A stretch of DNA of 64,000 nucleotides from Chitinophagales bacterium. Lineage in GTDB: Bacteria > Bacteroidota > Bacteroidia > Chitinophagales > UBA2359. Numbering within the stretch: position 1 is the stretch's first letter; each line of letters starts with the position of its first letter. A model generated the notes under the pieces. That model saw nothing but the letters and a program-made list of their open reading frames with translations, was not told the origin of the DNA and did no database searches. The stretch is from NCBI GenBank assembly GCA_016787295.1, contig JAEUUX010000051.1, positions 1-64,000 on the forward strand, read 5' to 3'. This document shows positions 3,935 through 58,365 of the stretch, piece after piece. The translations under genes were made by a program, and so were the position numbers.

Positions 3935-4081
3935 TTTGCCTTGTCATAAATGGCTGGTTATCAGGCACTTATGAAACTAATTACCATAATTTAGTTGCTT
4001 GTTTAACAATGGTGTTTCTAACCATTTTTGTATCCCAATATCCCAACTGCAAATTTTCATATTCAGAAAAAAACACACAAG

Positions 4082-5305: not shown

Positions 5306-5351
5306 ATAATCATAATTTTTCTGAAACTTTAGAAACCCAATATTCTATAAA

Positions 5352-13200: not shown

Positions 13201-13790
13201 TTATTGTCTGTTATCGCCCCCAAGACTTCTATATCTTCGGTGATTTTTCCCGACAATTGGAGATTAAAATTGGCATCGGCGCTTAGGTCTTGGTTGTTTC
13301 CGACCGATATGCTTCGCCCGAAAGAACCGCTATATTGCAACCCGCTTTGTTTGTCCCAAATTTGCTCATCCAATTCGCGCTCTTTTTTGATTTGGTATTG
13401 ATAGTAGGCAGAATAGTCGTTCTGGCGGTGCAAAATTTGTTGTGGGCTTTTGTGGGTTTTGCTTTCTTGCCAAAGAAAAGGAAAACAACGATAAGTCACC
13501 ATTATGGAATCGGTAGGCAAAGGTTTTTTGAGCCAAAACAAACGCGCACTTGCCCATTCCAAACGGTAATCGTTGGTATCGATACTGCTGGTCAGTTGCG
13601 CGTTTTTGTATTGGAGGTGGAATGTTTCGGGAACAATAGAAAGCGTGTCTATTTGCAAAGAATCGGTAGCCATTAAAAAAGTTTTTGTCCGCACATTTTG
13701 GGCGCACAATAGCGTGCCGACTATCCAAAATAGTCCGCCAATGAATAAAAAACGCCAAAATCTGTATTGGAACAAAAGAAATGATGTCAT
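10227..13790 (-). CDS. Large cell-envelope protein, probable outer-membrane beta-barrel
   Basis: About 1187 residues. The chosen ATG gives a signal peptide (hydrophobic run FLFIGGLFWIVGTLLCA, then QN); a TTG 51 bp upstream is open but less likely. The N-terminal third has IDTNDYRLEWASARLFW. A conserved segment follows, with GSERAFIDGQLLTRG and then DNDYVIDYNTAEIVFTPRQIM, reminiscent of SprA-type and related Bacteroidota surface proteins. The rest is rich in alternating aromatic and polar residues (for example RYEQRQDHTPQQQ) and ends in a phenylalanine (GIRAVF), as outer-membrane barrels do. There is no T9SS sorting domain. Function is unknown; export, assembly or adhesion roles are all open. 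It is transcribed alone. Confidence 0.7.
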   Translation of the reverse strand: MTSFLLFQYRFWRFLFIGGLFWIVGTLLCAQNVRTKTFLMATDSLQIDTLSIVPETFHLQYKNAQLTSSIDTNDYRLEWASARLFWLKKPLPTDSIMVTYRCFPFLWQESKTHKSPQQILHRQNDYSAYYQYQIKKERELDEQIWDKQSGLQYSGSFGRSISVGNNQDLSADANFNLQLSGKITEDIEVLGAITDNNIPFQPEGNTQQLQDFDRIFVQIKRKKTSVLLGDYDLKNTQQNYFSRYNRRLQGAQVQHEQNLGSKDRNIKIMASGAAAKGNFSRQTFNGIEGNQGPYKLNGNNGETFIMVLAGSERAFIDGQLLTRGYDNDYVIDYNTAEIVFTPRQIMTANKRIVIEFQYADRNYLRATIAANIRYESPKWTFFTDFFAEKDAKNQPLVNGSLSDEQINVLKQVGDSLSQALVLAIDTVTFAVDSRIYYRLADTIVYGIPFVFLEQSNNPDSAKFIATFSFVGKGRGFYELSNTSTNGRIYRWLPPDEQGNLQGSYAPVTPLVTPKSKLLWSAGGQWQPTKNQKVFVQAALSQQDPNTFSDIGNSDNGGVATWAGYENTVSLNKQIQLQIGGQYEWRQKNFLPLEIYRNVEFVRDWSLQNNTFAPANEHLGNAFVQIQNPQNNWQLRYKIGLLQREQHQYEGIQHQLSYQYKHKGWQIVSQNSWLKANNFVAQNSSEFLRPNAAVSKTFSIRKKANCEIGAKAEMEQNRIWLATDSLSRQAFYFYRWEVFNNWVIDSAKSRQIQLRYEQRQDHTPQQQRFSPNIFSQEANLQINWALNPNNQYNFRGTYRRVAVADTLTTTQRNLNNFLAELNQTAVRWKGLVRQTMQYQLNNGQRQITQIYYQKTEPGRGNYVWQDANQNGIEEIEEFLPAGINDVLRANYVQLALPTNTYEPTRQLQISYSLAIQPKALWQKNKGWQKIVAYWSLQSTMQNRREFQQKGATFWNFVPLVTNLLPIADSLLVSANTTTRHTLYFNRNGAKYESSLYWFRNLNKNLLVTGSTARQKNEYGTTHKISFDRKFTLDLTALMGSNSSIFMPNTAQNFVIRYYQATPVLSYMPTKNWKLALNYSFKYSYDTLLTDRKIAQTHQIAVDTRFGSAAKRSVSVRFSWAQVSYSGDNNSAAAYTLLEGLRTGSNFLWNISYDTRLSNNMQLNIIYDGRKAGSNKMSNVGRMGIRAVF

Positions 13791-13854
13791 TGTAAATAAT
13801 ATGACTGCCAAAATCCCCAAATCGTTGCTTTTTAAGAACAAATGAGTGATAATA

Positions 13855-17236: not shown

Positions 17237-20200
17237 ATGATCATGAAAAAAAATCTTACTGTATTTTTGTTGTTAGCCATGATATCAATGGCATGGAATA
17301 GCAATGTATTGGCGCAGTGCGGTGTGGGTAGTGCATATTTATCACGCAACTTACCGTCTGTTCCTAATTTTGCTGTCGCAGGTCCTTGTGACTATGCAGG
17401 AGAACATACTCCTTGGACAGAAACTGCTACTGCTCCCCAAACTTACAATGTGGTAGTGTGTAACTCTGGTGGTACTGCCAATCCCTCTTTAACCAATGGT
17501 CCTTACGTAGAAGTGTATGACAACACCAATGCCCTAATCGCTTCGGGACCAGCAGATTGCTTGGGCAATGGTGTCAATTTTACAACTGCTGCTGGCACAG
17601 GTCCTTATAGAATTGCTACGTGGGACGGTGTTACTTGTGGAACATTAAACACTTGTACGTATGCCTATGTTGAATGTGTATCTTGCGCTACTGTGGCTTG
17701 TAATGTAGATTATACGCTTAATGGTGCGGGCAACATATCAGGTACTACTGCGGGTGCAGGAGATAACTGCATTTTGAAGGTGGGTGAAGATATACAAGTG
17801 CAAGTAGAAATCCCAACTGCGGGCGCTTGGACATTCTCTTTGTGTGGTTCAACTTTTGATACCTACTTATACCTAACTGATGATTGCTGTGGTGGAACTA
17901 CCTTAGCTTCTGATGATGATGAGCCTACTTGCTCTCCATCTACTTTGGCTTCCTTGATTGCTTATAATATTGCCACTCCCGGCACCTATTATCTTACCAT
18001 AGAACCATTTAGCTCAACAGGATCTGGAGACTTTGTTTTGACAGTTACAGGACCTCCACCTGCTGTGGCTAATGACAACTGTTTGACTTCTGAATTTTTG
18101 TCACAAAATACCAGCTATGTTGGTACGCCCGGTACCATTGCAGGTTCTAGCGATTCTGGTATAGCTGCTTGTTCGGGTACTGCCGACGACGATGTTTGGT
18201 ATAGTTTTGTGGCAGCAACCACCGACCCTATCGTACAAACTACTACTGTTTTTGATGGTGTATTAGAATTGTTTAGTGGTAGTTGTGGAGGATTAGTATC
18301 TATTGGTTGTGCTGATAATGCTTTTACCAATGGTACTGAATTTATTACCACAGAAGGTTTAACTATTGGACAAACCTACTATGTACGAGTACATAGCTGG
18401 TCAAGTGCGCTTCAAGCAAATGGTTCATTCGAAATTGGTGTATACAACAACGTTTGTACCGTAGATGAAAGTATTACAGCTCCCGGTACTTGGACAGGTA
18501 CGACCGTAGGTGCAGGCAATGGCTGTATCTTATATAGTAGTGAAGATTATATTTATGAAGTAACTATTCCAACGGCGGGCGATTGGACATTCTCTTTGTG
18601 TGGCTCAGGCTATGACACGCGCATTGTTATTGGTTCAGACTGTTGCACTGAAGACTTGGGTATGAACGATGATGCTTGTGGTTTGCAATCAGAAGTTGTT
18701 TTGACCGATTTGACAGCAGGAACATACTATGTTATGGTAGAAGGTTTTGGAACAGCAAGTGCTGGTGACTATACACTTACTATTAGCAACTTTGTACCTG
18801 CGGAAAATGATGAATGCTCTGGTGCTATTGCTGTTCAACAAACAGTAGAAGAATGTGGTTCTCCTGTTTCGGGTAGTGTAGAAAATGCCACAGACTCTTT
18901 TGCTCCAAGCACATGTGATGGTTATACTGCTGTGGCTGCCAAAGATGTTTGGTTTAGCTTTGTTGCAACAACAGACAACCCTACTATAGAGCTAACTGCA
19001 CCATTTGATGCCGTAGTTGACCTTTGGAGCGGTACTTGTGGTGGTGGTGACTTCGCATCGGTGACTTGTGCCGATTTGGTAGAGGCCATTGCTGCAACAG
19101 GCTTGACTGTAGGCGAAACCTATTATGTGCGTGTTTATAATTACTCTACATTTACACCCACTGACCCAACTTTTACACTTTGTGTATACAATAGCCCCAA
19201 CCCTCCAGCTAATGATGAATGTTTGAATGCAGAGGTTATTAGCCAATCAAGTGCTTGTAACCCAACAAACGGTACTGTTGCTGGCTCTACACAGACTAAT
19301 GCACCTATTACTTGTGATGGATTGACTGCTATTACTGCTAACGATGTTTGGTATAGCTTCGTAGCAACTTCCACCGATCCATGGGTTATTGTAGACCCTG
19401 CTTTTGCTGCCCAAGTAGAAATACTTGCAGGTACTTGCGGTGGTGCTTCAATTGCTTGTGGCAACAATTATACAGGTGTTGTTACCATCGAAAATGCTGG
19501 ACTAACCATAGGACAGACCTATTATGTGCGTATTTGGCATTACTACAATTTCTTGCCTGTGGATCCAAGCTTCACCATTTGTGTACAAGACGCTCCTTCG
19601 GCTCCTGCTAATGATGAATGTACTGGTGCTATTAGTGTTACCCAAAATGCTACTTGTGTAGCTACATTAGGTTCGGTGCTTGCCTCAACACAATCGCAAG
19701 CTGCCGTTACTTGTAGTGGTTTTACGGGTACTGCTGATGATGATATTTGGTTTAGTTTTGTAGCTACTACCAACAATCCTGTCATCGATGCCAATATGGC
19801 TTTTGATGGTGTATCGGAATTGTTTAGTGGTAGTTGTGGTTCGTTGGTGTCTATTGGTTGTGCTGATGCCAATTTCTCCACAGGTGTAGAGTCTATCGAA
19901 GCAAGTGGCTTGACCGTAGGACAAACTTATTATGTGCGTTTGTATAGCTACTCTTCAATAGCTCCTGCCGATCCAAGCGTGGCTATTTGTGTACGCGATT
20001 TCCCACCTCCACCGGCTAATGACAACTGTTCGGGTGCTACTGTATTGACCCACACCGAAATTTGTGAGCCAACAACAGGTACTGTCGAAATGGCAACCAA
20101 CTCGGCTCCTGCTATCTCTTGTGAAGGTTTTACGGGTAGTGCTGACGACGATGTTTGGTATAGTTTTGTGGCGGGTGCCGCAGACACTACTTTCATCGAT

Positions 20201-21226
20201 GTTAATGCTAACTTCGACTCTGTGGTTGAATTGTTGAGCGGTGCTTGTGGCAGTGGTGCTACTTTGGATTGTGCTGATGCTAACTTTAGTTTTGGATTAG
20301 AGCAAATTCAGTATATTGGTTTAGTTGAAGGTCAAACCTACTATGTTCGTGTTTATAGCTATAGTTCAGTTCCTCCAACTAATGCCACTTTCAATATCTG
20401 TGTATATGGCGTGGATCCTGTTGATACAAGTACGGAACTTAACTGTGGCTTAACTTTAGACATCGTTAATACAGGCGAAATAGCTGGTACAGGCTATTGG
20501 GCAAACTTCAATGTGTATGAAATCAACATTAGTGGTGCAGGTATGCCAATTGAATTGGACTGGAACAACGAAGGTTATGTGCGTTATGATGTAGATTATA
20601 CCACAAACATCATTACTGTTTATACGGCTGCTAACGCAACTTTTGCTGTGACTATCACTGATGATAATGATTGTACAGAAGTGGTAACGAACGATAACAA
20701 TGCCGAAAATGACATTATGGCAATTGTTGAATATACTATTACCGACGACGATGGTTCTATGAACGGAGCTATCAATATTACTGTATCTGGTGGTACTTCG
20801 AGCTATAGCTATGAATGGTCTAATGGCGCAACAACCCAAGATGTTAGTGGTTTGGAAGGCGGTTGGTATAGTGTAACAGTTACGGACAATGGTACTGGTC
20901 AAGAAGAAGTGGGTTGGTATTGGGTGGCTACGGAACGTCGTGGTCGTGGTAAAGAAGACCTTACGGCTGCTATGCAAATTGCACCTAATCCAACTGCTAA
21001 TAATACCAACATTAGCTTTGCGGTATCTAATAGCGACTGGGCTACGGTAGAAATTTTTGATATGACTGGCAAAAATATTGGCAATGTGTTTACGGGTGCT
21101 ATCCAAGCCAACAGAATTGTTAATATTCCTATAACAACTAATGGCTTCCCTGCTGGTATGTATATTGTGACTTTGAAAACTAATAATGGTGTTGTGAAAC
21201 AAGAAAAATTGGTGATTGCCAAATAG
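17237..21226 (+). CDS. Large secreted repetitive protein with T9SS sorting domain
   Basis: 1329 residues. A signal peptide (ending NVLAQ; ATG codons at 17237 and 17243 are both possible) leads into two pre-peptidase C-terminal-like beta-sandwich domains (TAGAWTFSLCGSTFDTYLYL near 200 and TAGDWTFSLCGSGYDTRIVI near 455). Between and after them lie five copies of a ~135-residue module starting near residues 279, 523, 659, 792 and 928. Each has A-N-D-x-C, then DDVWYSFVA or similar, and TYYVRVYSY. A SprB-like repeat (near 1175-1225, SYEWSNGATTQDVSGL) and a type A T9SS sorting domain (APNPTANNTNISF to the end) close the protein. It is probably exported and attached or released at the surface; adhesion or binding of polymers is an inference. 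Confidence 0.85.
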   Translation: MIMKKNLTVFLLLAMISMAWNSNVLAQCGVGSAYLSRNLPSVPNFAVAGPCDYAGEHTPWTETATAPQTYNVVVCNSGGTANPSLTNGPYVEVYDNTNALIASGPADCLGNGVNFTTAAGTGPYRIATWDGVTCGTLNTCTYAYVECVSCATVACNVDYTLNGAGNISGTTAGAGDNCILKVGEDIQVQVEIPTAGAWTFSLCGSTFDTYLYLTDDCCGGTTLASDDDEPTCSPSTLASLIAYNIATPGTYYLTIEPFSSTGSGDFVLTVTGPPPAVANDNCLTSEFLSQNTSYVGTPGTIAGSSDSGIAACSGTADDDVWYSFVAATTDPIVQTTTVFDGVLELFSGSCGGLVSIGCADNAFTNGTEFITTEGLTIGQTYYVRVHSWSSALQANGSFEIGVYNNVCTVDESITAPGTWTGTTVGAGNGCILYSSEDYIYEVTIPTAGDWTFSLCGSGYDTRIVIGSDCCTEDLGMNDDACGLQSEVVLTDLTAGTYYVMVEGFGTASAGDYTLTISNFVPAENDECSGAIAVQQTVEECGSPVSGSVENATDSFAPSTCDGYTAVAAKDVWFSFVATTDNPTIELTAPFDAVVDLWSGTCGGGDFASVTCADLVEAIAATGLTVGETYYVRVYNYSTFTPTDPTFTLCVYNSPNPPANDECLNAEVISQSSACNPTNGTVAGSTQTNAPITCDGLTAITANDVWYSFVATSTDPWVIVDPAFAAQVEILAGTCGGASIACGNNYTGVVTIENAGLTIGQTYYVRIWHYYNFLPVDPSFTICVQDAPSAPANDECTGAISVTQNATCVATLGSVLASTQSQAAVTCSGFTGTADDDIWFSFVATTNNPVIDANMAFDGVSELFSGSCGSLVSIGCADANFSTGVESIEASGLTVGQTYYVRLYSYSSIAPADPSVAICVRDFPPPPANDNCSGATVLTHTEICEPTTGTVEMATNSAPAISCEGFTGSADDDVWYSFVAGAADTTFIDVNANFDSVVELLSGACGSGATLDCADANFSFGLEQIQYIGLVEGQTYYVRVYSYSSVPPTNATFNICVYGVDPVDTSTELNCGLTLDIVNTGEIAGTGYWANFNVYEINISGAGMPIELDWNNEGYVRYDVDYTTNIITVYTAANATFAVTITDDNDCTEVVTNDNNAENDIMAIVEYTITDDDGSMNGAINITVSGGTSSYSYEWSNGATTQDVSGLEGGWYSVTVTDNGTGQEEVGWYWVATERRGRGKEDLTAAMQIAPNPTANNTNISFAVSNSDWATVEIFDMTGKNIGNVFTGAIQANRIVNIPITTNGFPAGMYIVTLKTNNGVVKQEKLVIAK
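18071..20420 (+). repeat. Five tandem ~400-bp coding repeats
   Basis: Coding modules starting near 18071, 18805, 19211, 19610 and 20018. The first is separated from the second by one inserted beta-sandwich domain. Nucleotide similarity is clear in short blocks such as those encoding DDVWYSFVA, but divergence is too high for a very recent expansion. Confidence 0.7.
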
Positions 21227-32550: not shown

Positions 32551-35220
32551 CTACAATTGTTTAGCTGTAAACAAAGTGTTATAGTCACAACTTGGGCGAC
32601 CTTCGCTTTTGCCTGCTTTAAAATTATCTATACCTTTTTGCAAATAGGTAGCAAAATTTTGTACAGATACCAAGTTCCCCATGGGTGGATTAACCAATAC
32701 ATTTTCGTTGGGGTCGAGCAAAGGATAGTAGGGTTGTGAATTGGTTTGATAGCAAGAAGTTTGCATATATGCCCAATGGTCTCCTACGGTCTTAAACTGT
32801 TTGGTGCGACCTCTAAAGTCGGTATATTCTGTTTGTTTTTCGGTTGGCAAATCCACTTTTTCGTCTACATACAACGAAATTAAGACGAAATCGTTTTGTA
32901 ATTTTTCCAAAACACCGGGCTGATTCCACACATTTTCCTCCATTTTGCGGCAGTTAACGCACGCCCAACCTGTGAAGTCGATAAAAATTGGTTTCTTAGC
33001 GGCTTTTGCGGCTGCCAAACCTTCGGCATAATCATGGTAACAATCCAAGCCATGCGGACAATGTGATTTGGTTTTGTTGCCATGCGAATTGGTTTGGTGA
33101 CCATAACTATAGGTAAGGGGCGGTGGAAAACCTGCCATTAGACCCACAGGCAAAGGTTTGCCCATCAATCCGGGTACCAAAGAAATGCCTATCAAAAGAA
33201 ACACCGCTGCAAACGTCAAACGCTGCCATGACCAACGGTTTTTAACAGGACTATCGTGCGGAAAGCGGATGAAACCTAAGATGTAGATGGCTGTAAGGAA
33301 GAACAAGGCTATCCAAAGTATCAAGAAGGTTTCGCGTTTGAGCAAGCCCCATTGTTTAACCAAATCGGCATTGGAAAGGAATTTGATGGCTAAAATAATT
33401 TCTAAAAAACCTAACACTACTTTCACGCTGTTGAGCCAACCACCTGACTTGGGCAAGTTACTTAGCCAACTTGGAAACAAGGCAAATAAGCCAAAAGGCA
33501 ATGCCAAAGCAGTTGCGAAACCTGCCATACCCAAAGCAGGGTGCCACCAAGCACCTTCGGCAGCTTTCACCAACAAAGAGCCAATCAAAGGTCCTGTGCA
33601 GGAAAAAGAAGTCAAAGACAAGGTGAATGCCATGAGAAAAATGCTCGTCAAACCACTTGTTTTATCCACCGCAGCATCAGCGCTTGTGGTCATCCAACTG
33701 GGGAGCGTTATTTCGTAATAACCGAAAAACGAAAAGGCAAAGAACAAAAATAATACGAAAAAAGCGATATTCACCCAAGGATTAGTAGAAAATTCGTTGA
33801 GTGCCGCAGCTCCAAAAATAGCAGAGACCAACATGCCTAATGTCACATAAATCACGATGATAGAAAGGGCATAAATCAAGGCATCGCGCACGCCGTTAGA
33901 ACGGTTTTGAGCTCGTTTGGTGAACATACTCACCGTTAAAGGCACCATTGGAAAAATACAAGGCATGATAAAAGCCGCTAAACCACTCATAAAACCTAAC
34001 AAAAATATCCACAACCCAAAGGCATCGTCTGCTACTGTTTTAATGCTTTTGGCGGCTACTATAGTGGTGTTGGCGGTGGCTGTAGGTACGTCAAAAGTGT
34101 CTTCGAAAGGCGTACAACGTACAGCATCGCATATCATATAGCTCATCGTGCCGCTCAATTTATCGCTGGGCGACTCCAATTTGATTTTTTGTTGGAAAGT
34201 CACCATATCGCTATATTTCACCACTTCCATGTTGAACAAAGAGTCGAAAGCGGCTTTGCGGTGTTTGCTAATTTCTTCCATTTCACCCAGAGGCGTGCTA
34301 CCTTGGTCAAAGGTGAAGCTTGTCGGCAACGGACCGCCCGCAGCTATTTTGTTTGAATAGATATAGTGTCCCGCAGGTAAAGTGGCAGTAAATTTGACCA
34401 AATAGGTATTATCACCCAAATTCTCGATGGTTTTTTCCCATGTTGGAGGGCTTTGAATGCCACCACTTTCGGCAATTGGCGCTACATCGGTTGTTGGTGA
34501 GGTAGGTGCTTTGATATTTTTGCCTTGTTCCAACGAGTTCGATGTGTTAGTTGTTGTAGCGTCTGATCGGGGTGCAACAATGCTACTGCCGGGCAAATGT
34601 TTGGCAGTTTCGGTAGTATTATTGCTTGGATTTAATGGAGCTGGTCCCCTACGTATTTGTTCGGCATTATTGCCATTTCCACTTGGAGATACAACATTAT
34701 TATTAGCGGTTGATGTAATAGTAGGTGTGGCTTTATTAGGCGCTTCAGTTTTTTTCTCATACATCAATTCAAATGTCAACTCGTCGTCCAACTTTACACA
34801 TTTTTCATCGTTACAAGACATATAGTTGACCGGTACTTTGCATTTAGTGGTTGTTTTATTGAGTTTTACTTTGGTTTCGAATGTAACCTCTTCCGCAAAT
34901 TTTTTGACATTCATCTCAAACATAGGATCCATACCCTCTTTGACATGACTGCTTTTTTCTGAGGTTTTTCCGATAACTGTTATATCTTTAGCTTGACTAA
35001 AATCAAACTCGGTGGGCAGGGGACCGCCATCGCCTACTGTTTGGGAATAGATATAGAAACCTTTATCTATATGGGCTGTAAATTTTACCAAAAATTCACC
35101 CTTGTCTAACGATTGTACATTGGTTTTCCATTTTACAGGTTGCACCATTTGTTGGGCGAGCAAAGTTGTTGTCCCAAAAACAACCAAAGTCCAGCACAAT
35201 AATAAAGTAAGTTTTTTCAT
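32551..35220 (-). CDS. dsbD: DsbD-like thiol:disulfide interchange protein with two N-terminal domains
   Basis: 889 residues from the ATG giving MKKLTLLLCWTL and a signal peptide ending LLAQQ. Two DsbD-alpha-like domains come first (about 25-165, with MSCNDEKCVKL; and 265-390, with MICDAVRCTPFED), separated by a ~100-residue Asn/Thr/Pro-rich linker. The membrane part follows: its redox Cys residues lie in IMPCIFPMVPLTVSMF and SFSCTGPLIGSLLV, and eight or so helices are predicted. The C-terminal thioredoxin-like domain has FTGWACVNCRKMEENV (CVNC). The protein would carry electrons from cytoplasmic thioredoxin to periplasmic thiol proteins. A second stand-alone alpha domain is encoded immediately upstream. 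Confidence 0.88.
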   Translation of the reverse strand: MKKLTLLLCWTLVVFGTTTLLAQQMVQPVKWKTNVQSLDKGEFLVKFTAHIDKGFYIYSQTVGDGGPLPTEFDFSQAKDITVIGKTSEKSSHVKEGMDPMFEMNVKKFAEEVTFETKVKLNKTTTKCKVPVNYMSCNDEKCVKLDDELTFELMYEKKTEAPNKATPTITSTANNNVVSPSGNGNNAEQIRRGPAPLNPSNNTTETAKHLPGSSIVAPRSDATTTNTSNSLEQGKNIKAPTSPTTDVAPIAESGGIQSPPTWEKTIENLGDNTYLVKFTATLPAGHYIYSNKIAAGGPLPTSFTFDQGSTPLGEMEEISKHRKAAFDSLFNMEVVKYSDMVTFQQKIKLESPSDKLSGTMSYMICDAVRCTPFEDTFDVPTATANTTIVAAKSIKTVADDAFGLWIFLLGFMSGLAAFIMPCIFPMVPLTVSMFTKRAQNRSNGVRDALIYALSIIVIYVTLGMLVSAIFGAAALNEFSTNPWVNIAFFVLFLFFAFSFFGYYEITLPSWMTTSADAAVDKTSGLTSIFLMAFTLSLTSFSCTGPLIGSLLVKAAEGAWWHPALGMAGFATALALPFGLFALFPSWLSNLPKSGGWLNSVKVVLGFLEIILAIKFLSNADLVKQWGLLKRETFLILWIALFFLTAIYILGFIRFPHDSPVKNRWSWQRLTFAAVFLLIGISLVPGLMGKPLPVGLMAGFPPPLTYSYGHQTNSHGNKTKSHCPHGLDCYHDYAEGLAAAKAAKKPIFIDFTGWACVNCRKMEENVWNQPGVLEKLQNDFVLISLYVDEKVDLPTEKQTEYTDFRGRTKQFKTVGDHWAYMQTSCYQTNSQPYYPLLDPNENVLVNPPMGNLVSVQNFATYLQKGIDNFKAGKSEGRPSCDYNTLFTAKQL

Positions 35221-35241
35221 GATACAAGATTTTATTGGGTG

Positions 35242-35249
35242 CAAAATTA
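35242..35249 (-). promoter_or_regulatory. Promoter -7 element for dsbD
   Basis: Reads TAATTTTG on the minus strand, 21 bp before the dsbD start. A good -33 box is not seen. Confidence 0.5.
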
Positions 35250-40693: not shown

Positions 40694-40944
40694 GCTGTTC
40701 CATAAAACAAAACTATACAATACGAGGTAAATAATAGAAGGTTTTTTAAAAAAAATAACATATCACATTGAATTAGTTTTTAATCATAAATCCTTGATAT
40801 TCAGGGGTTTATGATTATTTTTTTTGCTTTTTAGCAGATTCAGCAGAATTTGAGTAGTCAAAAAAAACAATGTAGCACAATTTTTGTAAAACAATTGCTA
40901 TAGTTTTTCGTACAACTATCTCTTTTTTTGAAAATTTTTTCACA

Positions 40945-43900
40945 ATGACATCTAATAAATTACTTTACACCATGGCTGTTGCCTGCCTGCTCATTATGTT
41001 GAGTATTACAACAGTTGGTGCCAACAATTTTGGGGCGAATTATTTGAAGCATTATTTGCGCGCCCTATCTTCCTCATCAACAAGCAAAACAGAACCCAAT
41101 GCTTGCCAAATCACAGGTGCCAGCCGCACCAATATCTCGGCGTGTAACAACAACGGTACAACTGTAGAAACTGATGATTTTTATACTGCCAATGTGGTAG
41201 TCAGTTTTACAGAACCACCCACGTCGGGCAACTTGTCTTTGACTGGAACTTCCTTGTCACTCAACAATCCGCTCCCGACCGTGCCTGTAAGTCAATTGAC
41301 AGGCACCACTTATACGTTTACCAACGTTAAATTTCCTGCCAATGGTGCAACACAACAACAAATGACTATTGGCTTCACGGCAATTACTTGTGGTGCGAAT
41401 ATCACCTTCAATAATATTGCCTCTTGCTCTGCTCCTGTTTGTAGCATTTCTTCGGTTAGTCTATCCAACTTGGTGGGCTGCAATAGCAATGGTACGATGG
41501 GAGGTAATGCGAGCGATGATTATTACACCCTCAACGTAACGGTTAATTTTACTAACCCACCCACAACAGGCACATTGGGTTTAACCGGTGCGAGTTTGTC
41601 ACTCAACAGTCCTTTGCCTTCAGTGCCTGTATCTTCTTTGACAGGTACCAGCTATACGTTCCAGAACGTTAAATTTCCTGCCAATGGACAAGCATCGAGT
41701 TTTACGGCACAATTTTCTGCCAATACTGCTTGCCAAAAACCAGTGAACAACAACACCATTGTTCAGTCATGTTCTACGCCTCAATGTGCTATTACCAACG
41801 TCAACTTGCTTAACACGCAAGCTTGTAACTATAATGGTACGTGGGAGAATGGAACAGATGACTATTATTTAATTGACGTAAAAGTTGATTATCAAAACAT
41901 CCCAACTACTGGTACATTGAACCTAAGTGGTGCTGGCATCCTAAACAGTCCACAACCATCTGTAGCGGTAAGTGCTTTGACTGGTACTACATCGTATACT
42001 TTTACCAATGTGAAATTTCCTGCCAATGGACAAACTGTGCCTTTTACAGTTAGCTTTTCCGCTTTAAGCACTTGTGCAGTTAATGTAAACAATACGACAA
42101 GTATGCCAAGTTGTTCTACGCCTCAATGTTCCATCACAAGCGCGTCTTTGACCAATGGTGTGGCATGTAATAATAATGGTACGATTGGCGTTCCTGGTGA
42201 CGATTATTATATGGGCGATGTTGTGGTTACATACGTAAACCCACCCGCTACGGGCAATTTAGCCATTACAGGTACGCTCAACAACCCTTCCGTACCTGTT
42301 AGTTCGCTTTCGGGAGGTACATATACGTTTCCCGGCGTGCGTTTTGCTGCCAATGGTTTACCGAGTACTTTCCAAGTTGCTTTTACGGCTTCGCCCAACT
42401 GTACGCGTACTGTACAAAATAGTACTATTGTACAATCTTGTTCTGAAGCACAATGCGCTATAACAAATGCCGAATTTTTGCTTTCCACTGTTAGTTGTAA
42501 TAACAATGGAACTATCAATGTTCCGGGTGATGACTATTATGTTCAAAACATTAAAGTCTATTTTAGCAATCCTCCCACAACAGGCAATTTGGTTATAGAA
42601 GGAGCTTTGAATCCCAATGTTGTGCCAGTGAGTAGTTTAGTAGGTGTAAATAACTATACATTCAATAATGTTATATTTGCTGCCAATGGACAGACTTCTC
42701 AAATTACCATTCGTTTTAGTGCCAATACCACTTGTGCTTTGATATTGAATAATACCACAACCGTACAACCTTGCTCTGCACCACAGTGTACCATAGGTAA
42801 TGTTAGTCTTGCTAATGTAGTTGGTTGTAATAACAATGGTACAATGAACGGCAACGCAAGTGATGATTATTATACCGCCGATGTGGTAGTAAACTTTACT
42901 AACCCACCCACTACAGGCACTTTAAACCTTAGTGGCAATAGCATTCTGAACAGTCCGCAGCCTTCTGTGGCTGTTAGTTCTTTGACTGGCACAAGCTATA
43001 CCTTCACGGGTGTTCGCTTCCCTGCCAACGGTCAGGCTTCTTCTTTTGTTGTATCTTTTTCGGGAGCAAGTTGTTCTTCTACGATAACTAACAATACCAT
43101 AGTACAGTCTTGTTCTGTGCCACCTTGTAGTATCACCAACGTACAGTTGACCAATGCCGACCCTTGTAACAACAATGGTACTCCTACCAATACCGCCGAC
43201 GATTTCTATACCGTTGATGTGGTAGTGACTTATGCCAATCCGCCAGCTACGGGCAATCTTCAATTAACTAATGGAGCATCAGGTTCTGTACCTGTTTCGT
43301 CATTAACAGGCACTACCTATACTTTCCAAAATGTTCAATTCCCAGCTAATGGACAGATTATTCCTTTCAAAGTAAGTTTCTCTGCATTGTCTACTTGTGC
43401 TATCAATGTCAATAATACAGGACAAATTCCTTCTTGTTCCACAGGTTCAGCTAATTGTAGCATCACAGCCGCCACTTTGAGTAATGTTAGCACTTGTAAC
43501 AACAATGGCACTAGCACCAATGCTGCTGATGATTACTTTACTGCCAATGTGACTGTTACTTATACCAATCCCCCTACATCGGGCAATCTTATCTTAACAG
43601 GTACTGCCAATCCGACTGTTCCGACTGTATCGGTAAGCTCATTGACTGGTGGTAGCTATACCTTTACTGGTGTTCGCTTCCCTGCCAATGGACAAAATGT
43701 GAGCTTTACAGCAACTTTTTCTGCACAAACCACTTGTACTTTGGGAGTAAATACTACCACAAGTGTCGCTTCTTGTTCAGCTCCAGCATGTAGCATATCA
43801 GGTATAACGATTAGCAATGTGAGTGCTTGTAACAACAACCTAACTACTACCAATGCTGCCGACGACTACTATACTGCCACTATTACAGTTACCTATAGCA

Positions 43901-46167
43901 ACCCTCCTACAACGGGTTCTTTAGTTCTTTCAGGAAGTGCTTTGAACAGCCCTTCTGTATTGGTAAGTAGCCTTACAGGTACGAGTTACACTTTCACAGG
44001 TGTGCGTTTTGTTGCCAATGGTCAATCAAGTACCGTAATAGCAAGTTTTACATCTTTACCTTCTTGTTCTTATACCATAGTCAATCCCAATGCTATTCCT
44101 TCTTGTTCGAATGCACAATGTGCTATTACATCTACACAAATTGCCAACGTGAGTGCTTGTAACAACAATGGCACACTTGCTAACAATACTTCTGATGACT
44201 ACTATACTGCTAACGTATCGGTGATTTTTAGCAATCCGCCCACCACAGGCACTTTGAATTTGAGCGGAGCAGGCATTGTTAGCAGCCCATTACCGTCTGT
44301 TGCGGTGTCTTCTTTGTCGGGCAATAGTTATACTTTTAGCGGTGTGCGTTTCCGTGCCAATGGACAAACCAGCACATATACTGCAAGTTTTTCTGCACTA
44401 AGCAATTGCTCCTATACTGCCACCAATACTAATGCTGTACCGTCTTGTTCAGCCCCTGTATGTGCTATTTCGGGCATAAACCTTACCAATGTTGGTACAT
44501 GCAATAATAATGGCACCACTACCACCACCACCGACGATTACTATACTGTTAATGTAGTGGTAAACTATACCAATCCACCTACTACGGGTACTTTGAATCT
44601 AAGTGGAGTAGGTATTGTTAGCAGTCCATTGCCATCTATTGCTGTGGGTTCGCTTAATAGTAGCACATCGCACACTTTTGTTGGTGTACGTTTGGCTGCC
44701 AATGGACAAGCCTCTCAAATTGTAGCTGCATTTTCTGCTGTTAGTACTTGTGGTTTCCAACTCAACAACAACACCACTGTCCAGCCTTGTTCTGCTCCAC
44801 AATGCAGCATTACCAATGCACAACTAAGCAACATTAGCACATGTAACAACAATGCTACTACTACTAATGCCGCCGACGATTATTATACTGCCAATGTGAC
44901 CATTACTTTCTCTAATCCTCCTACCACAGGTACTTTGAACTTGGGAGGCACTGGTATTATCAGCAGTCCATTACCGTCTGTTGCGGTATCTTCTTTGTCG
45001 GGTAATAGTTATACTTTCACAGGTGTTCGCTTTCGTGCCAACGGACAAGCAAGTAGTTTCACGGCTACTTTCTCTGCCCTAACAAGTTGCACTACCAATT
45101 TTACCAACAATACTATCGTGCAGTCTTGTTCATCAACAACAGGAACTTGCTCTATTGGTTCGGTATATGTTTTGGCTCCGAGTATTTGTAACAACAACGG
45201 CACCCCAACCAACCCTGCCGATGACTATTATACCGCCAGCGTAAAAATATACTTTACGAATCCGCCCACAACAGGTACTTTGAATTTGAGTGGAGCAAAT
45301 GTTTTAAACAGTCCTGCACCTTCTGTAGCAGTTAGTAGTTTGACAGGTTTAACATCATATACTTTCACAGGTGTTCGTTTCCCAGCCAATGGGTTAGCTA
45401 CAACATTTACGGTTTCGTTTAGTGCTTTGCCCACTTGCACCAAAAATGTTACCAATATTACTGCTGTTCAATCATGTTCTAGTGGTACTGCCACTTGTAG
45501 TATTACCAATGTATCGGTCAATAGCTTTAGCGGTTGCAACAACAATGGCACCACTACTAACAATACCGATGACTATTTTACGACCAATGTAGTAGTCTCT
45601 TTCACCAATCCTCCTACTTCGGGCAACCTTACCTTGTTAGGTACTTTTAGTGCCACTGCTCCAACAGTAGCCGTCGGTGCTTTGACAGGTGTAACAAGCT
45701 ATACTTTTACAGGTGTTAGATTCAAAACAGGACAAACCAACACCTTTACTGCACAATTTACAAACAATACAAGTTGTTCAAGAACCACTACCATTTCTAC
45801 AATAGTACCAGCTTGCTCTACACCACAATGTTCTGTGGGGTCGGTGTATCTGCTCAATGTATCAGGTTGTAACAACAACGGCACGCCGACTAATCCTGCT
45901 GATGACTACTATACTGCCACAGTAAAAGTGTATTTCTCAACACCACCAGCCACAGGCACTTTGAACTTAAGTGGTGCAAATATCCTCAATAGCCCACAAC
46001 CTTCGGTAGCTGTTAGCAGTTTGACAGGACTTACTTTCTATAGTTTTACAGGTGTTAAATTTCCTGCCAACAACCTGTCTTCGGTATTTACGGTTTCGTT
46101 TTCCGATGCTCCCGGTTGTGCTAAAACTGTAACCAACATCACCAAAGTTGCTTCTTGCTCACAATAG
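40945..46167 (+). CDS. Giant secreted protein of 15 Cys-containing repeats
   Basis: 1740 residues: a signal peptide (MTSNKLLYTMAVACLLIMLS, ending TTVGA) and 15 repeats of about 112 residues from residue ~54 to the end. The repeat pattern is C-x-I-x-N...C-NNNGT...DDYYTANV...NPPTTG-x-LNLSG...VAVSSLTG-x-SYTF-x-GVRFPANGQ...FSA...C...V-x-SCS. Each repeat therefore has four Cys residues (at the start, before NNNGT, mid-repeat, and at the end), suggesting disulfide-stabilised Ig-like beta-sandwiches. It ends immediately after the last repeat (ASCSQ), without a T9SS sorting domain, transmembrane helix or lipobox. A long fibrous adhesin or matrix protein is the simplest guess. The gene is alone, with a strong terminator. 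Confidence 0.82.
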   Translation: MTSNKLLYTMAVACLLIMLSITTVGANNFGANYLKHYLRALSSSSTSKTEPNACQITGASRTNISACNNNGTTVETDDFYTANVVVSFTEPPTSGNLSLTGTSLSLNNPLPTVPVSQLTGTTYTFTNVKFPANGATQQQMTIGFTAITCGANITFNNIASCSAPVCSISSVSLSNLVGCNSNGTMGGNASDDYYTLNVTVNFTNPPTTGTLGLTGASLSLNSPLPSVPVSSLTGTSYTFQNVKFPANGQASSFTAQFSANTACQKPVNNNTIVQSCSTPQCAITNVNLLNTQACNYNGTWENGTDDYYLIDVKVDYQNIPTTGTLNLSGAGILNSPQPSVAVSALTGTTSYTFTNVKFPANGQTVPFTVSFSALSTCAVNVNNTTSMPSCSTPQCSITSASLTNGVACNNNGTIGVPGDDYYMGDVVVTYVNPPATGNLAITGTLNNPSVPVSSLSGGTYTFPGVRFAANGLPSTFQVAFTASPNCTRTVQNSTIVQSCSEAQCAITNAEFLLSTVSCNNNGTINVPGDDYYVQNIKVYFSNPPTTGNLVIEGALNPNVVPVSSLVGVNNYTFNNVIFAANGQTSQITIRFSANTTCALILNNTTTVQPCSAPQCTIGNVSLANVVGCNNNGTMNGNASDDYYTADVVVNFTNPPTTGTLNLSGNSILNSPQPSVAVSSLTGTSYTFTGVRFPANGQASSFVVSFSGASCSSTITNNTIVQSCSVPPCSITNVQLTNADPCNNNGTPTNTADDFYTVDVVVTYANPPATGNLQLTNGASGSVPVSSLTGTTYTFQNVQFPANGQIIPFKVSFSALSTCAINVNNTGQIPSCSTGSANCSITAATLSNVSTCNNNGTSTNAADDYFTANVTVTYTNPPTSGNLILTGTANPTVPTVSVSSLTGGSYTFTGVRFPANGQNVSFTATFSAQTTCTLGVNTTTSVASCSAPACSISGITISNVSACNNNLTTTNAADDYYTATITVTYSNPPTTGSLVLSGSALNSPSVLVSSLTGTSYTFTGVRFVANGQSSTVIASFTSLPSCSYTIVNPNAIPSCSNAQCAITSTQIANVSACNNNGTLANNTSDDYYTANVSVIFSNPPTTGTLNLSGAGIVSSPLPSVAVSSLSGNSYTFSGVRFRANGQTSTYTASFSALSNCSYTATNTNAVPSCSAPVCAISGINLTNVGTCNNNGTTTTTTDDYYTVNVVVNYTNPPTTGTLNLSGVGIVSSPLPSIAVGSLNSSTSHTFVGVRLAANGQASQIVAAFSAVSTCGFQLNNNTTVQPCSAPQCSITNAQLSNISTCNNNATTTNAADDYYTANVTITFSNPPTTGTLNLGGTGIISSPLPSVAVSSLSGNSYTFTGVRFRANGQASSFTATFSALTSCTTNFTNNTIVQSCSSTTGTCSIGSVYVLAPSICNNNGTPTNPADDYYTASVKIYFTNPPTTGTLNLSGANVLNSPAPSVAVSSLTGLTSYTFTGVRFPANGLATTFTVSFSALPTCTKNVTNITAVQSCSSGTATCSITNVSVNSFSGCNNNGTTTNNTDDYFTTNVVVSFTNPPTSGNLTLLGTFSATAPTVAVGALTGVTSYTFTGVRFKTGQTNTFTAQFTNNTSCSRTTTISTIVPACSTPQCSVGSVYLLNVSGCNNNGTPTNPADDYYTATVKVYFSTPPATGTLNLSGANILNSPQPSVAVSSLTGLTFYSFTGVKFPANNLSSVFTVSFSDAPGCAKTVTNITKVASCSQ
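41104..46164 (+). repeat. 15 tandem ~336-bp coding repeats
   Basis: The in-frame repeats encode the CNNNGT...DDYYT...NPPTTG unit. Later repeats (about 7 to 15) look more alike than the first five, and small unit-to-unit length changes occur around the variable loop between SCS and the next unit. No loss of frame is seen anywhere. Confidence 0.8.
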
Positions 46168-46191
46168 GCAATAACATCTTAACAAGATGAT

Positions 46192-46226
46192 AAAAGCCGT
46201 GTCTTACCTTTAAGACACGGCTTTTT
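46192..46226 (+). terminator. Hairpin terminator after the giant repeat gene
   Basis: AAAAGCCGTGTCTTA pairs with TAAGACACGGCTTTT with a 4-nt loop, ending in T5. A second smaller hairpin CATCTT/AAGATG precedes it (46175-46189). Confidence 0.9.
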
Positions 46227-46526
46227 GTTGCAATATATATCAAATACATAGATGTATGAAAAATGCAGAACTATTTTGAGAATAAAATTCTATCATAATT
46301 ATTATTACCAACTTTCCTCACCCATAAAAAAAACAGTATGTTAGCTGATTCGCGGTTAGCTGTAAAATGAAATTAAAACGATTTATTTTTATTAAGTTTT
46401 ATAAAGCTTTGATAATCATGTAGTTTATTTGGACTATGAGAGATGTTGGATTAAAAATGCTATAATGGTTAATATTGTTTTGAATTTTAATGAATAAAAT
46501 TTACAGCATGAATTCTTAACACCAAA
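46227..46526. other. AT-rich intergenic region
   Basis: About 300 bp, very AT-rich, between the two terminators of convergent genes. I see no open frame, repeat or promoter in it. Confidence 0.5.
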
Positions 46527-46561
46527 AGGTGATTCTATCATATTAATAGATAGAATCACCT
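46527..46561 (-). terminator. Hairpin terminator for the gene at 46584-47630
   Basis: AGGTGATTCTATC (46527-46539) pairs with GATAGAATCACCT (46549-46561). For the minus strand the stem is followed by TTTTGG. It is just downstream of the stop of that gene. Confidence 0.75.
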
Positions 46562-46583
46562 CTATTTTTTTGTTAAAGATGGG

Positions 46584-47630
46584 TTAATTATTTTTTTTCT
46601 TGGCTTTTTTAGTCTTTTTTACGCCGCTTTTTTGTGCTTTGCTTGCATTGCGTCCTTCACCCAATACAGGTTTAACAACAGGAGCCGATTGCATATATTC
46701 GCGCAATACTTGTCCAACTTCTTTCCACACACCGTTTTCATAACGGAAACCATAATACATGCCATCAGGCATCATTTCGGCATGTTTTTGTGTGAATCCT
46801 TGTTCTTTTTCGTCGTCGTTGCTTAGGTGGTCATAAATAATTAGGTCTTGCTCGGGTTCGTAGCGCAGATTAACGGCTGCTGATTTTCGGTATTCCAAAA
46901 AGAAACGGTGTTGTATTTTGAAGGCGTTAGCAACGTCGTCATAGACATTGAAAACAGGCGCTCCAAAGGTAGGTTTGTCTCCTTCGAAGGTGACTACTTC
47001 GGCAATTTTTCGGTTGCTTCGGGTAGTATTGCCGTCCCAGCCGAATAAGAAATAGTATTTTTTGCCATCAAATTCTTTGATGGTGCTACCATAGTACAAA
47101 CAACCATACCAATTGTCGGGTGCGCAACTTTGCATTTGTGGCGATGCCATGCTTACCGATTTATCTTTTAATCCTACCAATTTGAGTTCTGGAGCATTAA
47201 TTTGCATGGCACCATAGTATTCATACGTTTCGTTGGCGTTTTCGAAAGTTCCTGTGATGTTGATGATGGGCCAACTAAAAATTTTGAAACTTTGGTCTGA
47301 TGGTTCTACAATGCTAATGTAGTTTTTAATGCTATCAAATGGATAGTAAAAAGAGTTTTCGGTTTTTAGTGCTTTGATCAACATGCGAGCAATTTGTTGA
47401 CTAATTTCGTAGCGAGCCAGATTGTCTTCGGGTTTGCGGTGATATATCCTACCCAGTGTGTCGCGAATAGATTTTTCGGACAAATCGGCAAACAACATTT
47501 TTAGTGAGTCTTCATACGGACGAATCGTTGCTATGGCGGCGGGACTAAGGGCTACAGGTGCTTTTTTTTGCGCCCACAGCAAATTGCTTGCCATTGATAA
47601 ACCAACGAGCAAAAAAAGCATTTTTTTCAT
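46584..47630 (-). CDS. Secreted hypothetical protein of Bacteroidota
   Basis: 348 residues from the ATG giving MKKMLFLLVGLSMASNLLWA (signal peptide, then QKK); upstream in-frame ATGs at 47636 and 47651 add a few residues. The mature domain has SIRDTLGRIYHRKPEDNLARYEI, NYISIVEPSDQSFKIFSWPI and YYGSTIKEFDGKKYYFLFGWDGN, a pattern I know from uncharacterised Bacteroidota exported proteins. The C-terminus is strongly basic (SGVKKTKKAKKKNN). No catalytic motif is recognisable. It stands alone with its own terminator. Confidence 0.65.
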   Translation of the reverse strand: MKKMLFLLVGLSMASNLLWAQKKAPVALSPAAIATIRPYEDSLKMLFADLSEKSIRDTLGRIYHRKPEDNLARYEISQQIARMLIKALKTENSFYYPFDSIKNYISIVEPSDQSFKIFSWPIINITGTFENANETYEYYGAMQINAPELKLVGLKDKSVSMASPQMQSCAPDNWYGCLYYGSTIKEFDGKKYYFLFGWDGNTTRSNRKIAEVVTFEGDKPTFGAPVFNVYDDVANAFKIQHRFFLEYRKSAAVNLRYEPEQDLIIYDHLSNDDEKEQGFTQKHAEMMPDGMYYGFRYENGVWKEVGQVLREYMQSAPVVKPVLGEGRNASKAQKSGVKKTKKAKKKNN

Positions 47631-55683: not shown

Positions 55684-58365
55684 TTACTGCACCACCAACA
55701 ACTCACTCCAAACAAAATCACTAGCTTGCAAACGAACAATATATTGTCCCGCAGGCAAATACTGAATCGGGAGGCTAATAATATCTCCGTTGGGTTGCAA
55801 ATACAATTGCGGTTGTTGTTGTACGATTTTGCCTTGTAGGTCGATGATTTGCAGTTGAGCTTGTGTCGGTTTTTCCAACTGTACCCGCAAATTTAGCCAT
55901 ACATCGGCGGGATTTGGATAGAGAGTAGCATTTATAGCAGGTTCGGTGGTTGGTGTGGCGGACAACCAAATGTCTATATTCGTGTCGCGAAAAGCCATAT
56001 TTGTCCAACGGTTGCCATTGTCGCGCAAAATGCTCACCACGCGCGCTGGCAACACCCCGTTGCCATAATACAAAATATCATCATTGTTGGCGTTGCCCAC
56101 TTTGATGGAAAGATTATTATTGGTGCGGCTTTTGAGGGTGCGCACAAAATCGTACATTGCCTCGCAGTTTCCTGTTCGCAACGAGATAAAACTGCCCGTT
56201 GTTAGCGGATTGGGGTCTGTCCAAGTGGCGACTTGTTGGTTGTTGCTATAAACTCGAATTTCGCCCAAAGCAGGACTATAGCTCACCTTGATGTCATACC
56301 ATTCATCAGCATTGACCATAAGTGCATTATCTGCTACCAAATCAAACACATTGTTGGTCACTTTATAGATTTGGGCTTTGCTACCGTCTACCCTAAAAAA
56401 TACAAAATAACTATTGCCCCGATTTTCGGCATCGCCATCGTCTGCAAAAAAATGAAAACCTGCTCGACGGTTGGTGCCACTGCCCATGATTTTGAGGCGA
56501 AAATTATAGAGATAGTTCACGCCATTGCTTTGGGTGAGTTCGGCATAAAGGTTGGTATTGTCTTCGGCGGTGTTGATTTGATACACCACACCTTCGTCGG
56601 CAATCCAAGTACCTGTAGCTGCTCCCCAGTCGGCGCTTAATATGCCGTTATCAAATTCATCGTTGAAAAAACCCGCTTTGCCGTTGGCTCGCCAATCACT
56701 GTTGGTTGGTTCATAGACAACTTGGTAGAATTTGCCATTAAAACCATTCCCGCAAGCATCAATATCTTCAAAAGTTGCTGTAAAATCATTGTTGTAGTAG
56801 GGCAGCAAAGTTTGGATATTGGCGCTCGGAAAACAACTGCCACACGCCCAATTGACTGTAAAACCCGGTCGCACGGTCGCATTGTCCGATGTGAAGCGGA
56901 GGGTGAGGCTGTTATTGGTGGAGGTGATGGTGCCGGGATTTGCTGTACCGGTGTATGTGCCAATGAGGGGAGCAGCAGTGTTGCTGCCGTCATATATTCG
57001 CAAAAAATCAAAATTGTTTTCTATATCAAAACTTGGAAAAGAGATGGTCACAGGCAGCGAAGGTTCGGGCGAAGTGAGGGTGTAGGTATAGCTTTCGTTG
57101 TTTTGATAGTTGCCCAAACTACCACCAGTGTCGTGAAGCTCAATACCCGTGCAAGGATTATAGCAGTCGGTAAATTTTGTTTCGAGCAAATTCCAAAGTT
57201 GGTTATAGCCCGCATCGTAGCCGAGCGCCCAAATGCCTGTGCCTGCCAATTTTTTTGCCAAAATCATGTCGTAGCGTTGTGCCAAACTAATTTCGTCTTC
57301 GTACCAACATTGGCGCGTTTCGCCGCCTGATAGGTAGATGAAATAGGGCGAGGCACTGTGGTTGTCCCATTGGCGCGTATAGGTATTGTAAAAATTGTCG
57401 CGCACATATTTGTAGGTGCGCGAAACGCCTGTTGCAGTTGTGTTGGAGGGAATATTAGCGGACTGGGTCGTCCAATCATAACCGTAATAAGGCACTGCCA
57501 AAATCAATTTGCTGGCAGGTACGCCTTCGTTGAGGTAGTAGTTGACCGAGCGGTTGAGAGTATACATATTCCAAGCCGTGCCAGAATAGAGTGGAGCAAC
57601 AGGTCCTGCTTGTGCGTCGCCTGTATAATGATAATCGTAGCCCATGATGATAAAACGGTCAACGTGTGGCACCAATTCGCTGACATTGAACGCTCCCGCC
57701 CAGTCTACGGCAAAAACATCGATAGAAATGCTGGTATTGGGGCGTTCGGCATTGAGGCGTGTATCTAAATAGGTGATAAAATCGACAAAATTATCGTCTT
57801 GTGACGAAGGAATACCCTCGAAATCAATATTCACCCCATTAGCTTGCCGATAGTTGAGCAAAGGAATTAACGAATCTACCAGCGTTTCCCAAGCATCGGG
57901 ATTACTCAAAAAAGTGGTATTGTTGCTATTTCCAAAATTCACTACCGCTAAATCTATTTTGCAGCCCGCGGCGCGAGCTAAATTGATGGAAGTCGTGGTT
58001 TTCCAACTATGAATGTCTGTATATTGTCCTGTACTGGGGTTGAGTTCATACGAAAAATAACACAAAGTGGACAAAAGGTGGTAGTCATAGTTGTTATACA
58101 CCGACGAACCTACCCAATAAGGTTGAAAACCGTAGACTTCTTTTTGGAGCGTACAAGTAGAACGGTCGGAGGTTGTAAGATGGGAGGTGGGGAGGTTAGC
58201 AGTATTGCCCAAAACAGTTTGTAACGAATCGTATTGGGCTTCGGTTTGGAGGTTAAATTGACGATAAAAGTCGTTTTCGGCATGATGAATTGAAGTATAT
58301 TGCGCCCAAATCGTTGTCGAAAAACAACAAAAGCATAGTATCAAAAATAGGAAGGGCTGTTTCAT
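55684..58365 (-). CDS. Secreted GH18-family protein with CUB and T9SS sorting domains
   Basis: 893 residues with signal peptide MKQPFLFLILCFCCFSTTIWA. A GH18 barrel spans about 75-395: VYGFQPYWVGSSVYNNYDY and LVDSLIPLLNYRQANGVNIDFEGI. The DxxE catalytic part is at Asp181 to Glu183 (IDFEG, as in YaaH-type peptidoglycan and chitin-active members). FIIMGYDYHY and TGIWALGYDAG follow. A CUB domain is at about 415-510, with Cys residues and FDFLRIYDGSNT. A LamG-like region is at about 560-760 (FFNDEFDNGILSADW). The end (NATLYPNPADVWLNLRVQLEKPTQAQLQII to VVQ) is a type A T9SS sorting domain. It probably acts outside the cell on chitin or peptidoglycan. Confidence 0.88.
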   Translation of the reverse strand: MKQPFLFLILCFCCFSTTIWAQYTSIHHAENDFYRQFNLQTEAQYDSLQTVLGNTANLPTSHLTTSDRSTCTLQKEVYGFQPYWVGSSVYNNYDYHLLSTLCYFSYELNPSTGQYTDIHSWKTTTSINLARAAGCKIDLAVVNFGNSNNTTFLSNPDAWETLVDSLIPLLNYRQANGVNIDFEGIPSSQDDNFVDFITYLDTRLNAERPNTSISIDVFAVDWAGAFNVSELVPHVDRFIIMGYDYHYTGDAQAGPVAPLYSGTAWNMYTLNRSVNYYLNEGVPASKLILAVPYYGYDWTTQSANIPSNTTATGVSRTYKYVRDNFYNTYTRQWDNHSASPYFIYLSGGETRQCWYEDEISLAQRYDMILAKKLAGTGIWALGYDAGYNQLWNLLETKFTDCYNPCTGIELHDTGGSLGNYQNNESYTYTLTSPEPSLPVTISFPSFDIENNFDFLRIYDGSNTAAPLIGTYTGTANPGTITSTNNSLTLRFTSDNATVRPGFTVNWACGSCFPSANIQTLLPYYNNDFTATFEDIDACGNGFNGKFYQVVYEPTNSDWRANGKAGFFNDEFDNGILSADWGAATGTWIADEGVVYQINTAEDNTNLYAELTQSNGVNYLYNFRLKIMGSGTNRRAGFHFFADDGDAENRGNSYFVFFRVDGSKAQIYKVTNNVFDLVADNALMVNADEWYDIKVSYSPALGEIRVYSNNQQVATWTDPNPLTTGSFISLRTGNCEAMYDFVRTLKSRTNNNLSIKVGNANNDDILYYGNGVLPARVVSILRDNGNRWTNMAFRDTNIDIWLSATPTTEPAINATLYPNPADVWLNLRVQLEKPTQAQLQIIDLQGKIVQQQPQLYLQPNGDIISLPIQYLPAGQYIVRLQASDFVWSELLVVQ

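Follow-up and report, generated by a model that had tools for sequence, protein, structure and literature searches.

How would a large secreted protein built from a single repeated domain reach, or stay on, the cell surface of a T9SS bacterium if it ends without a sorting domain? The question is raised by a gene for a 1740-residue protein in a 64,000-nucleotide stretch of a Chitinophagales draft genome (assembly GCA_016787295.1, contig JAEUUX010000051.1), which we refer to as the window. The product is most likely a lineage-specific, Sec-exported, disulphide-stapled rod. For the fuller reading, a beads-on-a-string protein that would serve the cell envelope as a spacer or adhesive rod, with an extracellular location slightly favoured over a periplasmic one, we put the probability at about 0.5.

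The description of the protein as a signal peptide followed by 15 four-Cys repeats holds, with the signal peptide a probable one (Table 1). The units are 109 to 116 residues long and contain four Cys each, so that 60 Cys lie in the repeats and, with one in the signal peptide, 61 in the whole protein. The mature sequence fits the strict spacing of these Cys at 15 places, whereas 1000 shuffles of it averaged 0.004 matches and contained at most one. The N terminus has a hydrophobic stretch with an A-x-A-like site at its end, as judged by eye, and the highest 15-residue hydropathy windows begin at residues 6 to 12, reaching 2.4 in the signal peptide versus a maximum of 1.6 beyond residue 40. The signal-peptide Cys, C14, falls inside the hydrophobic stretch (AVAC); further hydrophobic residues come after it, with no acidic export signal, and neither a lipobox nor an LES was apparent by eye. 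The mature chain is poor in charged residues (K+R+D+E, 4.4%, versus 12.6% and 15.6% in two T9SS proteins from the window) and rich in S+T+N (41%), the make-up we would expect of an inert extracellular spacer.

Table 1. The 15-repeat gene, the parts of its product, and the flanking hairpins, in positions of the window.
Feature	Position	Strand	Basis or remark
Terminator-like hairpin, between the gene and the preceding + strand genes	40781..40817	+	
ORF, secreted 15-repeat protein, 1740 aa	40945..46167	+	
Probable signal peptide (aa 1-26), cleaved most likely behind VGA	40945..41022	+	By eye; hydropathy
Linker, aa 27-53 (27 residues), signal peptide to repeat 1	41023..41103	+	
Repeat 1	41104..41439	+	
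Repeat 2	41440..41784	+	
Repeat 3	41785..42126	+	
Repeat 4	42127..42453	+	
Repeat 5	42454..42786	+	
Repeat 6	42787..43125	+	
Repeat 7	43126..43455	+	
Repeat 8	43456..43788	+	
Repeat 9	43789..44118	+	
Repeat 10	44119..44460	+	
Repeat 11	44461..44802	+	
Repeat 12	44803..45147	+	
Repeat 13	45148..45495	+	
Repeat 14	45496..45828	+	
Repeat 15 (last), protein C terminus ...VASCSQ	45829..46164	+	
Intrinsic-terminator hairpin after the stop, 15-bp stem, 4-nt loop	46192..46225	+	Folding energy

The protein was also said to stop right after its last repeat, and it does: the C terminus lies immediately past Cys 4 of unit 15, a few residues before the point where internal units meet the next unit. A second in-frame stop follows five codons beyond the first. 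Of the two findings that, according to the original prediction, would overturn it, one was a downstream sorting domain set apart by a sequencing error, but all three frames of 46151-46600 are stop-broken and none contains a sorting-domain-like or CTD-like stretch. The hairpin downstream begins 25 nt past the stop codon and is T-rich on its 3' side, and the stretch 46168-46235 folds at -29.9 kcal/mol versus -8.2 for shuffles (z -9.1). Because the downstream frames hold no sorting domain and a hairpin terminator follows the stop, the gene end looks native and not like a sequencing error. With terminator-like hairpins both upstream and after the stop, the gene is probably transcribed by itself. 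Elsewhere in the window, the minus strand encodes an 897-aa DsbD-like protein a few kb from the Cys-rich gene (32551-35244; PRK00293, E 2.9e-40, under the model's cut-off) and a 1204-aa protein (10227-13841) that has no Pfam or NCBIfam match and whose C-terminal F, judged by eye, is as in an outer-membrane barrel.

The absence of a T9SS domain was confirmed by several searches. Pfam returned no family at E<=10 for the full protein, NCBIfam none for its last 119 residues (TIGR04183, TIGR04131 and NF033708 all absent), and the comparison with CTD profiles was negative. The full sequence drew a single, spurious NCBIfam match (E 0.0084). The last 119 residues contain no short tail of the IPTL-CTERM or CVP-CTERM type; the same kind of scan finds such tails elsewhere. 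We also considered the last repeat as a disguised CTD and rejected it: against profiles built from the CTDs of relatives (19 type A, 6 type B), hhalign gave probabilities of 0.9% (type A) and 0.2% (type B), versus 52% (E 1.5e-4) for type A against type B as positive control. T9SS CTD structures were not among the best 50 fold neighbours of the single or triple model (VIA), a result that excludes nothing.

As claimed, T9SS domains do occur in other large secreted proteins of the window, in two of them as type A (17237-21226 and 55684-58365). The latter, on the minus strand, combines glycosyl hydrolase family 18 and a CUB domain with its sorting domain. In the genome as a whole, at least 150 type A matches (with scores for 150 of the 465 candidates) stand beside 40 type B matches above the cut-off, counts that indirectly indicate that the host possesses a T9SS. 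Since T9SS sorting domains number at least 190 in this species, an absent tag would most plainly mean that the protein is not T9SS cargo.

To place this among relatives, the last 119 to 120 residues of 40 complete repeat-bearing proteins were scanned against NCBIfam. These were what remained of 48 frames after one duplicate-contig frame (L070 = L076) was dropped together with seven that ran off the end of a contig or of the fetched sequence (L064, L025, L074, L079, L083, L089 and L033); a 365-aa protein of genome G191 (L050/L126) was left out of the scan. Among the 36 C termini from other genomes, 19 matched type A and 6 type B over the cut-off, i.e., 25/36 have T9SS domains. The rest comprise one type B match below the cut-off (L068), two IPTL-CTERM matches over it (L026, and L078, whose frame continues beyond the domain) and eight with nothing. 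None of the four complete repeat proteins of the source genome has a T9SS domain. One of the four, at locus L104 on contig C230 (3081-9797), is a 2239-aa protein ending CPPAKCIPITVTKQ, with a sub-threshold NCBIfam match to the CVP-CTERM putative sorting domain, and the C-terminal end of locus L028 resembles it.

What is the repeated domain? The original prediction asked for a prediction of the repeat fold; AlphaFold, run on unit 13 with 63 aligned repeats, gives a confident model (pLDDT 96.9, pTM 0.86) with seven strands (residues 2-9, 27-37, 44-48, 59-61, 70-79, 85-91 and 94-103), so that each repeat is confidently predicted to be an Ig/FnIII-like beta-sandwich. In the model of the C-terminal three-repeat piece (pLDDT 88.2, pTM 0.44), the beads are confident and their mutual placement is undefined. 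The closest single-domain neighbour is 6kzb, a transglutaminase C-terminal sandwich (Z 8.4, rmsd 2.6 over 92 residues), and those of the triple model include fibronectin fragments as well as 6xi3, from the extender of an adhesin (Z 8.2, rmsd 11.3 over 262), although a Z near 8 may reflect no more than a common arrangement. We call the fold match generic because no Foldseek match of the single domain reached E 0.001; a viral fold library likewise gave nothing at E<=0.001.

At the sequence level, the domain appears to be uncatalogued. Of 23 single units of the source genome searched against Pfam, the first gave no family above the gathering score and the remainder scattered weak matches, one member each. 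PHROGs gave no family, PDB sequence searches gave no significant match, Rfam had no match within the 64-kb window, and a literature search of partial coverage returned no paper on the four-Cys domain or on CTD-less Ig arrays. For this four-Cys Ig-like module, neither Pfam nor NCBIfam offers a relative, and the PDB offers no close one. Conservation across the same 23 units falls on the four Cys, on core residues, and on a polar cluster that follows Cys 2 (N-x-N-G-T...D-D), and 50 of the 59 domains scoring over 60 bits have exactly four Cys (the duplicate locus L070 counted). Since four Cys are conserved in an exported protein, we infer two disulphides per unit; the polar cluster is a possible metal site.

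The domain also occurs in other Bacteroidota. Counting the source genome each time, repeat profile A1 has matches in 75/298 genomes of the order and 13/20 of the family, and profile A7 in 44/395 genomes of the class at E<=1e-5; named carriers include Saprospiraceae, Chitinophagaceae and Croceivirga. With about a quarter of the sampled order genomes carrying it and our searches of Pfam, NCBIfam and PHROGs giving no model, the domain merits a family model. Proteins of other genomes have at most six units among the frames read from the matches listed. The source genome has 27 matches: 15 in the query, 9 on contig C90, and one each on C219, C70 and C230. The C90 paralogue (locus L021, 6324-11192, minus strand) is a 1622-aa protein with a signal peptide, nine repeats and other regions; it has no T9SS sorting domain and ends ...FGTFPGNHN, with a hairpin downstream of its stop (folding energy of the stretch -30.8 kcal/mol, z -7.6). 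Adjoining it on the same strand (2860-5493), an 877-aa signal-peptide protein ends ...TCACGALPGTW, with no CTD by eye.

Mobile elements were examined as a source and rejected: phages gave no match, plasmids a single weak one, beneath an Aureibacter gene annotated as a metalloprotease, and viral contigs 20 pattern matches but no relative. Two further occurrences stand apart, namely three repeats (L069, 817-4593) on a contig binned as a Verrucomicrobiales MAG, reflecting either horizontal transfer or misbinning, and a 16,143-codon open frame with repeat-profile matches at about 2112852-2114882 of G148:C14.

The later repeats had been described as near-identical and taken to suggest copy-number change by recombination. 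Neither point survives closer comparison. Mean pairwise identity is 55% in amino acids and 58% in DNA, the most similar pairs reach about 75% in amino acids (r13-r15) and about 70% in DNA (r10-r12), and exact DNA repeats within the gene reach at most 23 nt, between r1 and r2. Codon identity at shared residues is about 25-58% per repeat pair versus 38% expected from the gene's codon usage, i.e., synonymous codons are near random. As the later repeats are not near-identical, nothing in them points to a recent change in copy number, and from their divergence a constant repeat number within the genus would be expected. In a tree built from 57 repeat domains, with 30 of 54 inner branches unresolved, one weak branch splits the query's 15 repeats from the paralogue's nine; this split, which concerns the repeats of these two proteins, is supported at 74/96 on the reduced set and present in 93% of bootstrap trees. 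Because the repeats are diverged, their codon identity is near chance, and they group apart from those of the paralogue, the array is probably an old, lineage-specific expansion. We found no orthologue of the 15-repeat architecture among 60 relatives or 395 genomes of the class; the 20 genomes of the family search include none of its genus except the source genome itself.

As a general sorting tag we considered a short tail that several proteins share at the C terminus, C-x-x-[ND]-x-G-[TA]-W with the stop directly behind it. It ends the secreted proteins of L103 (2812-5451 and 5455-6144), L065 (937-1764), L106 (593-2026), L126 and L117, and the three of these scanned against NCBIfam (the 880-aa protein of L103, L065 and L106) matched no family. 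As a DNA pattern, the tail occurs at 15 places in 13/298 genomes of the order, versus 6 for the backward control; 3 of the 15 end a frame longer than 300 aa, 10 end an unsupported frame shorter than 40 aa, and 2 run past the motif. Searching with a 13-column profile turned up 11 matches (E<=0.05) in 9/298 genomes, four of them (in 2 genomes) the known tails. Clear cases thus amount to 2/298 genomes of the order, plus L065 and G412. The tail is genuine in few proteins, rare, and absent from the 15-repeat protein, and we rejected it as a general tag. The C termini of L035 and L077, ending CG-x-FPW-x-G..., may represent a further shared tail; one of these two frames bears repeats and the other adjoins a repeat gene.

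Where, then, does the 15-repeat protein end up? One competing answer is that it is a periplasmic structural or binding protein, which uses Sec export only and never crosses the outer membrane. This is possible, at well under even odds. It accounts directly for a signal peptide combined with no type A, B or C CTD, IPTL-type tail, lipobox or LES. It conflicts with the very low charge, with the placement of the domain's relatives mostly in T9SS cargo, and with length: 15 extended domains of FnIII size span tens of nanometres and would exceed the width of the periplasm. In its favour, the CTD is the established T9SS signal, and one study has a signal-sequence-mCherry fusion without a CTD as a control (PMC10994853). 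Another possibility, that the protein is carried over the outer membrane by the T9SS or another route on an undescribed signal, such as the terminal repeat or a short C-terminal tail that serves a class of CTD-less Ig-repeat proteins in this order, strikes us as unlikely. It would fit the four of four complete repeat proteins of the genome that have no T9SS domain, the several secreted proteins without a recognised CTD that share the tail above, and the description, in PMC11285876, of T9SS CTDs as themselves Ig-like sandwiches. However, the repeat profile does not match either CTD type (against 52% for the control), and the tail is both missing from the query and clear in so few genomes of the order.

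The remaining alternatives concern the history of the gene and its assembly. A former T9SS cargo might have lost its sorting domain by truncation, leaving a relic or a gene with a periplasmic function; a terminal CTD is common among relatives that carry this domain, and the last unit halts just before the internal junction point. We nevertheless regard this as improbable. The open frame runs for 1740 codons through diverged repeats that retain 60/60 of their Cys, and the stop is followed by a hairpin terminator and no CTD remnant. The C90 paralogue likewise lacks a CTD and has its own hairpin, and simple truncation would not readily account for two arrays that both end cleanly with no CTD. An assembly artefact, either a wrong repeat number or a frameshift concealing a sorting domain, is very improbable: the genome is a draft in 296 contigs, but with no exact internal repeat beyond 23 nt a collapse or expansion is unlikely, and the downstream frames show no CTD.

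We therefore return to the Sec-exported rod. This reading starts from the architecture, the gene end, the absence of a sorting domain, and the occurrence of the domain in T9SS cargo elsewhere, and joins to them a predicted fold; oxidation, rod function, and final location are proposals. Other Bacteroidota mostly have between one and several copies of the module as parts of surface proteins that the T9SS exports. One copy would have been amplified long ago in this lineage until the array became the whole protein, with no T9SS sorting domain. After Sec export and removal of the signal peptide, folding and oxidation would take place in the periplasm, with two disulphides per unit, and the folded 15-bead chain may serve the cell envelope as a long, flexible, nearly uncharged spacer or adhesive rod. 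Placed end to end, 15 beads of this size measure tens of nanometres. Composition, length, and the placement of the domain in relatives tip the balance slightly towards a final place outside the cell and away from a periplasmic one, which is nearly as good; the route across the outer membrane would then be one that no recognisable sorting domain encodes, by way of vesicles or release, or with the help of a partner protein or an unrecognised signal. It is tempting to go further and propose, in this order, a class of Sec-exported, Cys-stapled Ig-array proteins that reach the surface without a known C-terminal sorting domain although the genome abounds in T9SS tags, with the 15-bead protein and the C90 paralogue as its largest clients, though we think such a class doubtful. 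The two CTD-less arrays offer a simple case in which to ask whether large repeat proteins of T9SS bacteria can arrive at the surface without a CTD or whether Ig arrays also work in the periplasm.

Among known systems, the SprB gliding adhesin of Flavobacterium johnsoniae is comparable as a giant repetitive secreted protein of the Bacteroidota; SprB is exported by the T9SS, while the query lacks a CTD and gave no Pfam match that would relate it to the SprB repeats. Fibronectin type III tandem arrays are the top Foldseek neighbours of the three-domain model, but the match is generic (TM about 0.2 over the triple) and there is no sequence relation. The extender regions of giant adhesins (5irb, 6xi3 and SiiE 2yn5) are fold neighbours that also consist of tandem Ig-like beta-sandwich beads; the query differs in that no sequence relation to them was found, and in having four Cys per domain and no distinct adhesive tip domain. 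From T9SS type A and type B surface proteins (TIGR04183 and TIGR04131), it differs in lacking the sorting domain and in having a mature part made of one domain type 15 times over. It shares with them a probable signal peptide and a multi-domain extracellular architecture, and many of them contain the same four-Cys domain.
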